Assembly (NCBI RefSeq): GCF_022549215.1
Contig: NZ_JAKZFC010000005.1
Coordinates: 62,001 to 126,000 of the forward strand
Origin: Solibacillus palustris
GTDB taxonomy: Bacteria > Bacillota > Bacilli > Bacillales_A > Planococcaceae
Direction: 5' to 3'
Length of the DNA stretch: 64,000 bases
Both the position numbers and the translations under genes were made by a program. Position 1 is the first letter of the stretch. Every line of letters begins with the position of its first letter. The notes below the pieces were generated by a model. It saw nothing but the letters and a program-made list of their open reading frames with translations, did not search any database and had not been told where the DNA came from. This document shows positions 60,682 to 63,548 of the stretch, piece by piece.

Positions 60682-62004
<1,323 letters not shown>

Positions 62005-62009
62005 TTTTT

Positions 62010-62046
62010 CGGCGCTCGGGGATTTAATTTCCTCGGGCGTTTTTAA
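62010..62046 (+). terminator. Terminator after eno
   Basis: CGCTCGGGGA and TCCTCGGGCG pair with two G-U pairs, followed by TTTTTA. Confidence 0.8.
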
Positions 62047-62047
62047 T

Positions 62048-62200
62048 TATTAGAGCTAGGATATTAGGAGAAATGGCGTTTTTATTAGAAGAAAATGTGT
62101 ATTTATTAGAACAAACGCTAGATATATTAGAACTTTTTAAGGATATATTAGAAGAAATGACATACATATTAGAATAAATCGCAATTATATTAGAAAATCA
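62048..62200. repeat. Array of TATTAG(A/G) motifs with exact 21-nt period
   Basis: TATTAG starts at 62062, 62083, 62104, 62125, 62146, 62167 and 62188, i.e. seven motifs at exactly 21 nt; an eighth at 62048 is 14 nt before the first. The kept part is about 8 nt (TATTAGAA, with one GG variant), while the other 13 nt of each unit vary freely. On the minus strand it reads TTCTAATA and lies directly 3' of the NERD-domain gene. 21 nt is two DNA helical turns and also seven codons; one frame gives a Leu-Leu-Glu heptad pattern but is broken by a stop. Confidence 0.9.
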
Positions 62201-62218
62201 CGTAAAACTTCCATTAAT

Positions 62219-63148
62219 TCACCAACTATCAGGAATGATATAAAATGCGCCTTTATTAGTGCCATGTTTTTCTAAACCTAATTTCCTTAACATTTTTGAT
62301 GCTGTGTGTATGCAGGGGATGTTGAAAAACTCTCGAAACTCTTTATTCGTAATTCGAGGGCTTATTAAAATACGATAATGAACTAAAGATTCAATAATGG
62401 CATCTTTATTTTTAGTTTGACATATGCTGCATTCAAAATAACCCTGTTTATAATACATTACATTTAAATATTGGCATTGCTTACAGAGGACACCTTTACG
62501 AAGGCGATGCTTTTCAATTGTGCGACGAGGTGGGAGCTGCTTATAGAGCAGTGCAAAATGATTTTGCAAAATGGATAAATTTGCTTGAGGCTTGGGATGC
62601 TGTTCATATAATTTTTCTAGATAGTAGGGAACGCCACTAATATGCATAATTGGATAATCCATTAAGGAAGAGTCCAGTTTTGCACGTATATTTGCAATTA
62701 CAACCATGTAATAGACGGGAATCGATATTTGCCACGTTTTTAACAAATACTCGATAAATAATTGATGACGGTAGGCTTGGTCGAAGGGGTTTGGGAAGTT
62801 TTCTTGGAGGTTGGATTCAGAAACTCGATAAAATTCATGTAACGCAGGTTTATAAAACAATGTGCCCGAAATTTGCTTTACTTCGAAAATAACAATAAAA
62901 TGTGCCGTAACGAGCAGACCATCTATTTGGTGCGTATAGCCGCTAGCGTTTACGCATTCAAAATTATAATAAATGCGTCCCTTACTTCTAAGATTGTAGT
63001 CTGATATCACGCGCTTCAATTTTTCCTCACCCGCTAGCCCAGCATTTAAACGATAAAGCTTTTGCTGAAATGTGGTAACTTCTAAATCGTCGGGATTCAG
63101 GCGTTTATTGACGGCATCGATAAAAAAATAATGTTTAGATTTTTGCAT
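62219..63148 (-). CDS. NERD-domain protein with zinc ribbon and winged helix
   Basis: 309 residues. N-terminal NERD (nuclease-related) domain, about 25-140, with PD-(D/E)xK-like residues: G-E-E (~42), Q-I-D-G-L-L-V (Asp ~76) and F-E-V-K-Q (Glu, Lys ~90). Next a zinc ribbon C-K-Q-C...C-S-I-C (about 220-245), then a wHTH-like C-terminus (I-T-N-K-E-F-R-E-F-F...M-L-R-K-L-G-L). Likely a DNA- or RNA-acting nuclease; role unknown. The ATG at 63148, 8 nt after AAGGAGG, is chosen over GTG 63157. Monocistronic; the 21-nt motif array begins within 20 nt of its stop. Confidence 0.82.
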   Translation of the reverse strand: MQKSKHYFFIDAVNKRLNPDDLEVTTFQQKLYRLNAGLAGEEKLKRVISDYNLRSKGRIYYNFECVNASGYTHQIDGLLVTAHFIVIFEVKQISGTLFYKPALHEFYRVSESNLQENFPNPFDQAYRHQLFIEYLLKTWQISIPVYYMVVIANIRAKLDSSLMDYPIMHISGVPYYLEKLYEQHPKPQANLSILQNHFALLYKQLPPRRTIEKHRLRKGVLCKQCQYLNVMYYKQGYFECSICQTKNKDAIIESLVHYRILISPRITNKEFREFFNIPCIHTASKMLRKLGLEKHGTNKGAFYIIPDSW

Positions 63149-63548
63149 GTAGTTCACCTCCTTATGACCAATTTACAATAGAGAAAGAGTTTTAACAAGT
63201 TGCCTAATTTGATAAAAATTATAATCCAAGATCTAATTCCAGAGACATAAAAATAAAGCCATTATCAATGGAGCTAAAGTATTTTATTCGTTTTTAATTA
63301 AGTGGTCAAAAGGAATTTTTGCTCTATGGATATCAGGCCAAAATTCTAATATAGGCAATCCATATCACAGTGAAATTCCGTTTGTTACTAACAAAAAATA
63401 AGCAATAATCATTCTGGGGAAAGCGGCATCTGTAAATAATTATCCACAGGAGTCAATCTGGTGTTCTTTGGAAAGAAATATTGTAAAGATGAGTGGATTT
63501 TGCTATACTGATTTGTATTGTGACGTCCATAACTAGGAGGTGGAGCAA
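63149..63548. other. Intergenic region NERD gene-secG
   Basis: Divergent promoters expected. On the minus strand 63284-63364 is a 26-codon open stretch reading LPILEFWPDIHRAKIPFDH, which looks protein-like but has no start or ribosome site, so it may be a gene remnant. Upstream of secG, GCTATACTG (~63501) resembles an extended -10. Nothing else is supported. Confidence 0.4.

Follow-up and report, generated by a model that had tools for sequence, protein, structure and literature searches.

A predicted nuclease gene beside a 21-nt phased DNA array points to an undescribed family of paired proteins and DNA targets

The locus

The window analysed here is a stretch of 64,000 nt from Solibacillus palustris (assembly GCF_022549215.1, contig NZ_JAKZFC010000005.1, positions 62,001 to 126,000). 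Near its end, between the enolase gene eno and a gene for a NERD-domain protein, lies an array of one short DNA word repeated at a fixed step. The features, in window coordinates, are as follows.

60709..62004 (+): eno (enolase), a conserved neighbour
62011..62045 (+): terminator-like hairpin and T run after eno, directly before the array, seen in sequence and fold
62048..62055 (+): extra octamer TATTAGAG, 14 nt before the array
62062..62195 (+): array of seven TATTAGRA octamers at 21-nt steps
62196..62218 (+): gap of 23 nt to the end of the NERD ORF, possibly a degraded array tail (an inference, as elements in related genomes continue with 19/20-nt steps)
62219..63157 (-): NERD protein gene, 312 aa, GTG start
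62696..63040 (-): NERD domain, aa 40-154, with D79, E92 and K94 as candidate PD-(D/E)XK active site
62420..62485 (-): Zn ribbon, C225, C228, C243 and C246
62222..62407 (-): C-terminal winged helix-turn-helix (wHTH), aa 251-312

The array had been noticed in a sequence-only reading of the window, and that observation is confirmed. TATTAG occurs at 62062, 62083, 62104, 62125, 62146, 62167 and 62188, exactly 21 nt apart, and once more at 62048. The last six units are exact TATTAGAA, whereas the unit at 62062 is TATTAGGA. The array ends at 62195, not at 62218 as first given. Its lag-21 periodicity is 83/126. The pattern is not due to chance: in the whole 4.0-Mb genome the two-unit pattern (<=1 mismatch) gives 14 hits, of which 11 lie in two arrays (six here and five in the second), against 1 hit for a reversed-pattern control. 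Further, of 17 intergenic gaps >=150 nt in the window, only this one reaches 46/84 in a motif-agnostic 21-nt periodicity scan. The second array, of six units, lies outside the window at G000:C1:1169717-1169829 (G000 being the genome of the window), between what look by eye like an ArsR-type and a glyoxalase-type gene, with no NERD gene in the stretch examined.

Arrays in related genomes

In 261 genomes of the family, three-unit TATTAGAA arrays (<=2 mismatches) occur in 17, against 0 for the reversed-pattern control, although three of the 17 (G134, G239 and G242; G numbers denote genomes) have only one or two hits. Of 16 Solibacillus genomes, 11 have them, with 9 to 288 hits. Named records with the four-unit pattern belong to Ureibacillus manganicus, Ureibacillus acetophenoni and Solibacillus merdavium, the array of the last being identical to one in G152. 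In U. manganicus (G243), a 103-bp block of four TATTAGAA units plus linker is repeated about five times nearly identically. Across 1.02 Mb of sequence from the genus, lag 21 gives 78 periodic stretches, while lags 16-20 and 22-27 together give 9. Arrays share a layout of 21-nt steps followed by 19, 20 and 20/21 at the end, sometimes preceded by blocks of about 145 nt; the 19/20-nt steps at array ends are unexplained. By eye, and without computation, spacers go from G/T-rich to A/C-rich along an array. In a 400-kb sample of G163, 12 arrays were found, none of which overlapped an ORF of 500 nt or more; five overlapped short ORFs (75-143 aa), which were disregarded. This sample was partly chosen around known arrays and gives no density.

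Such dispersal, with arrays at 22 or more sites along the G163 chromosome, the strict two-turn phasing and the constraint confined to the motif (see below) would fit a role in chromosome organisation or DNA partition, with NERD coating phased arrays and bridging or anchoring the nucleoid. However, the window species has only two TATTAGAA arrays, and a conserved nuclease site is not needed for such a role, so that this reading is considered unlikely. Genome-wide searches covered only TATTAGAA/TAATAGAA and AAAGTAGAA, and the dispersal of other motifs, including in other genera, was not examined in this way. Outside these groups, 12 distant loci with exact TATTAGAA arrays were inspected (for example Odoribacteraceae, Acidobacteria and Treponema). 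Most are near-identical tandem repeats, among them long 21-nt repeats in an Odoribacteraceae and an Acidobacteria MAG, and none has a NERD gene in the stretch examined.

Constraint on the motif

At five syntenic array loci, each in four or five genomes (six genomes in all), motif bases differ in 49 of 3112 comparisons (1.6%) and spacer bases in 1168 of 5057 (23.1%), while four-fold sites of genes in the same stretches differ in 16760 of 67667 (24.8%). Spacers are thus close to neutral, the octamer is strongly constrained, and unit positions 9-11 are partly constrained (8-10%). The comparisons are pairwise and not independent; 56 of 445 unit comparisons with gaps were left out, as was G159 from one locus group (D), because its right flank is not orthologous. 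These data argue against ordinary neutral tandem repeats or a coding heptad repeat. Although 21 is a multiple of 3 and some arrays (for example in G034 and G036) are near-perfect tandem repeats, the motif diverges about 15-fold less than the spacers, the 19- and 20-nt steps break the reading frame in the arrays seen, and none of 40 control gaps passes the periodicity cut. This explanation is therefore very unlikely.

Units of 21 nt with variable spacers could also suggest that the arrays act as RNA, either structured or as a source of 21-nt guides. However, folding energy was not clearly better than that of shuffled sequences in four folds (z +0.95, -1.33, -0.40 and -0.24), there was no Rfam match at gathering score, and spacers evolve at about the four-fold rate. 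Together with helical phasing and a wHTH partner, which point to DNA, this leaves a role as RNA very unlikely.

Linkage of arrays to NERD genes

Judged by TATTAGAA-type motifs alone, the link between array and NERD gene looked like mere synteny. All 8 fetched NERD loci with >=61% identity have such an array nearby, while 0 of 22 other fetched NERD loci do, three eno-linked NERDs among the latter. In these counts one broken G161 gene counts as two loci, and a broken 60-66% copy in G155, which does have an array, was not included. Further, NERD presence as such does not predict TATTAGAA arrays, as NERD proteins occur in 203 and TATTAGAA arrays in 17 of 261 genomes. In Solibacillus the TATTAGAA/NERD adjacency is one syntenic region, and NERD genes stand at the eno-secG site without a TATTAGAA array in G162, G160 and G161. 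Insertion boundaries at an array-less site were, by eye, too diverged to read. The single syntenic region and the greater frequency of NERD proteins would suit a view in which arrays and NERD genes are neighbours by shared descent only and another, unknown factor reads the arrays, and the result with TATTAGAA-type motifs alone nearly led to rejection of the pair. However, in a Ureibacillus genome with few arrays, one sits again between eno and NERD, with seven of nine units reading TAATAGAA, and the same gene order recurs in other genera with TAATAGACA- or ATTAGACAC-like motifs.

NERD loci were therefore scanned for any periodicity, which reversed this judgement. In 66 loci, the best lag in the 800 nt 3' of NERD was 21 in 58, against 19 of 66 upstream; five of 30 Solibacillus loci had been removed beforehand (L170, a near-duplicate, and L182, L192, L193 and L194, which are broken, with an internal stop, or partial; L numbers denote loci). 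Of 40 intergenic gaps elsewhere in the same loci, none passed the cut (best lag 21 in 5), against 26 of 40 NERD 3' regions (best lag 21 in 33). In a stricter sample of 69 NERD genes below 80% identity, 45 have a 20/21-nt array on at least one side, against 2 of 95 control genes; 24 of the 69 show no clear array. The best downstream lag is 21 in 50 of 69 against 18 of 95, and outside Solibacillus downstream lag 21 is found in 27 of 54 against 1 of 95 (Fisher p=1.2e-13). Controls in both comparisons come from non-Solibacillus loci only, because that genus carries dispersed arrays. Loci in the other genera were chosen for similarity and contig size, not for arrays, with the exception of L024, an array-bearing locus that came in through the array. 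Four loci outside the family were refetched with longer flanks after a first look, and none was dropped for lacking an array. Outside the family, 8 of 12 loci have an array, mostly upstream and some with a 20-nt period. In one of the loci sampled (L332, genome G338), the NERD gene is flanked on both sides by a 20-nt-period array, TTATGAGCC, so the period is not always 21. Adjacency thus recurs at many non-orthologous NERD loci and in other families with different motifs, the dispersed AAAGTAGAA arrays follow the NERD class (see below), and the explanation by shared descent alone is considered unlikely.

An excess of arrays far from NERD genes had been named in advance as evidence against a functional pair. 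This condition does hold in array-rich genomes, yet it does not refute the pair, because dispersed arrays there share the motif of a NERD-adjacent array.

Co-divergence of motif and protein

NERD classes carry different motifs. Examples are TATTAGAA, AAAGTAGAA, ATTTAGTCA, TAATCCTCA and TTATGAGCG in Solibacillus, TAATAGACA and TTTACTTGCAA at two NERDs of G018, TACCCGCGAAA in the group g8, TTATCGGACA and TTACTTGCGA in g18, and CGACTGATT in f29. Six g8 loci (L259, L260, L266, L269, L283 and L284) have NERD-adjacent arrays with whole 21-nt units almost identical, so recent tandem growth is likely. Over 64 non-identical pairs, motif similarity follows protein identity (Mantel r 0.547; maximum of 2000 permutations 0.138). 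Motif similarity is 0.82-0.88 at >=65% protein identity, whereas paralogs in one genome are as different as strangers (0.267, 25 pairs). Of four protein regions, the winged helix predicts the motif best (standardised beta 0.42, against 0.15 for the NERD domain, 0.10 for the Zn ribbon and -0.04 for the linker). One concern is that motif and protein would correlate by shared descent even without binding; the Mantel test does not correct for this, and its pairs are not independent. Proteins with stops, X or a length outside 270-360 aa were removed before the homolog alignment and before these and the 69-gene comparisons, in which loci of one gene or close copies were collapsed by identity.

A prediction was also written down before the search, namely that AAAGTAGAA arrays should occur in the six genomes that hold that NERD class. 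The search gave 35, 97, 72, 77, 77 and 45 hits in G151, G153, G154, G155, G158 and G163, one hit in G159 and none in the other nine genomes of the genus, with controls at 0. However, four of the six (G151, G154, G155 and G158) already had AAAGTAGAA arrays in view, so that only G153, G163 and the ten expected negatives were blind. The class is clean, with at least 67.5% identity within it and at most 53.4% to the 23 other NERDs of the genus that were compared.

For TATTAGAA the fit is weaker. All 8 Solibacillus genomes with an intact class-1 NERD have arrays, but so do 3 of 8 without it (G154, G155 and G162; p=0.026). Broken NERD genes, with a split frame or an internal stop, are present in G161 (L228), G155 (L218) and G154 (L193). 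In two genomes without the intact gene, non-exact motif units are commoner, at 9 of 54 against 14 of 226 (p=0.023; G159 was again left out of group D). Further, no cognate NERD was found for the TATTAGAA arrays of two Ureibacillus genomes: 0 of 17 array loci hold a NERD gene in stretches of 4.7-8 kb, and none of the sampled NERDs of G233 (1 of 2) or G243 (3 of 5) shows that motif, the remaining ones not having been read.

The NERD protein

The protein matches the Pfam NERD profile (PF08378) at E=4e-16, with 59.9 bits against a cut-off of 22.1, and 62 of 62 homologs match at E<=0.01; for the window protein only NERD matched. In these homologs D79, K94, C225, C243 and C246 are invariant, and E92 and C228 are conserved in >=90%. 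The AlphaFold2 model is confident (mean pLDDT 95.6), with helices 253-264, 271-278 and 283-292 in the C-terminal domain. Residues 1-190 resemble PD-(D/E)XK nucleases such as Can2 and Cdn1 (Z 8-9.7), but the best Foldseek E-value is a weak 1.4e-3, so that the nuclease fold is suggested rather than settled and the active-site reading is an inference. Residues 253-310 resemble winged helices at Z about 6, a middling value that may reflect only a common arrangement, and a structural family missing from these searches is not excluded. A sequence search of solved structures gave nothing at E<=0.1, and NCBIfam and defence libraries gave weak hits only (PglW, NERD+UvrD, ZorE and MAD6 kinase). No homolog was found in 72,556 plasmid records (E<=1e-10) or 50,697 phage records (E<=1e-5), and a single-protein search of viral contigs found no relative.

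Interpretation

The best explanation is that the array is the cognate DNA target of the adjacent NERD protein. In this view, the C-terminal winged helix reads one asymmetric motif of 8-11 bp, and units two helical turns apart let copies bind head-to-tail on one DNA face, with protein and array diverging together. The sequence-only reading had guessed at a linked NERD/array pair bound by the wHTH protein, and this interpretation is supported, with the correction that the motif is not fixed but differs between NERD classes. Linkage, co-distribution of one class, co-divergence and selection on the motif are shown by the analysis, whereas direct binding, cooperativity and action of the nuclease at arrays are inferred, as neither binding nor cleavage was assayed. 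Confidence in the cognate pair is high, though slightly lowered because part of the prediction was not blind.

The arrays could instead be operator sites, bound by NERD proteins or another regulator only to control their own and neighbouring genes, with dispersed arrays forming a regulon to which the nuclease domain is irrelevant. By eye, some arrays (locus groups A, B and E) lie just upstream of promoter-like sequence, and some NERD genes have arrays with one motif on both sides. However, flank orientation shows no clear bias (++3, --3, +-3 and -+2 of 11 scored), the window array lies between convergent genes, some arrays run to about 30 units, and D79 and K94 are invariant. This alternative is considered unlikely, although less so than the other rivals.

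The most likely role of the nuclease step would be making arrays or copying them into other intergenic sites, tens of dispersed arrays having resulted in some genomes. This proposal, made by analogy with REP/RAYT systems, has no direct evidence and is tentative. Equally tentative, but not excluded, is the broader possibility that NERD proteins of Bacillales are a family of self-addressed nucleases, each of which makes, copies and spreads its own phased array with the address written in the winged helix. Paralogs in one genome would then diverge to non-overlapping addresses, so that one cell could carry several independent protein/array systems. Literature searches, judged from listings and the openings of abstracts, showed no paper tying NERD proteins to arrays or stating a role for this NERD/Zn-ribbon/wHTH architecture. 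Pairing each protein with a visible DNA address gives dozens of candidate natural protein-motif pairs, a testable specificity code for winged helices, and possibly a second, unrelated solution to what REP/RAYT systems do, namely maintaining families of dispersed intergenic repeats.

Comparison with known systems

Other NERD-domain proteins, such as SmdA or PglW, share the domain, but no array was named for them in the literature listings seen. CRISPR arrays likewise combine a regular motif with variable spacers next to a nuclease gene. However, CRISPR repeats are about 20-50 nt, whereas the present repeats are of 8 nt with 13-nt spacers that evolve at about the neutral rate; neighbouring genes were not scanned with cas profiles.

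Iteron/Rep systems of plasmids have direct repeats about two turns apart that are read by winged-helix proteins, with specificity classes. The present locus is not a replicon: it lies in a glycolytic gene neighbourhood, and the protein has no plasmid or phage homolog at the limits used. Only about 8-11 of 21 bases are kept here, and arrays are dispersed. The ends of Tn7 involve a PD-(D/E)XK nuclease with a winged helix (TnsA) and roughly 22-bp repeat binding sites (TnsB). A partner transposase, defined ends or target duplication were not looked for here, only the ORFs around the locus being listed, and the NERD site at eno-secG is syntenic in several genera.

The REP/RAYT systems (REP-associated tyrosine transposases) also comprise a gene for a DNA-cutting enzyme flanked by its own class of short repeats, which occur in many copies in the genome (PMC2817692). 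Dispersal of the cognate repeats in intergenic DNA is shared by the array-rich genomes, whereas the window species has two arrays. RAYTs are tyrosine (HuH) transposases related to IS200/IS605, and REPs are palindromes flanking the gene in inverted orientation. Here the enzyme is NERD-type, with a predicted structure resembling PD-(D/E)XK plus wHTH, and the repeats are head-to-tail phased arrays, often on one side only, as in the window.
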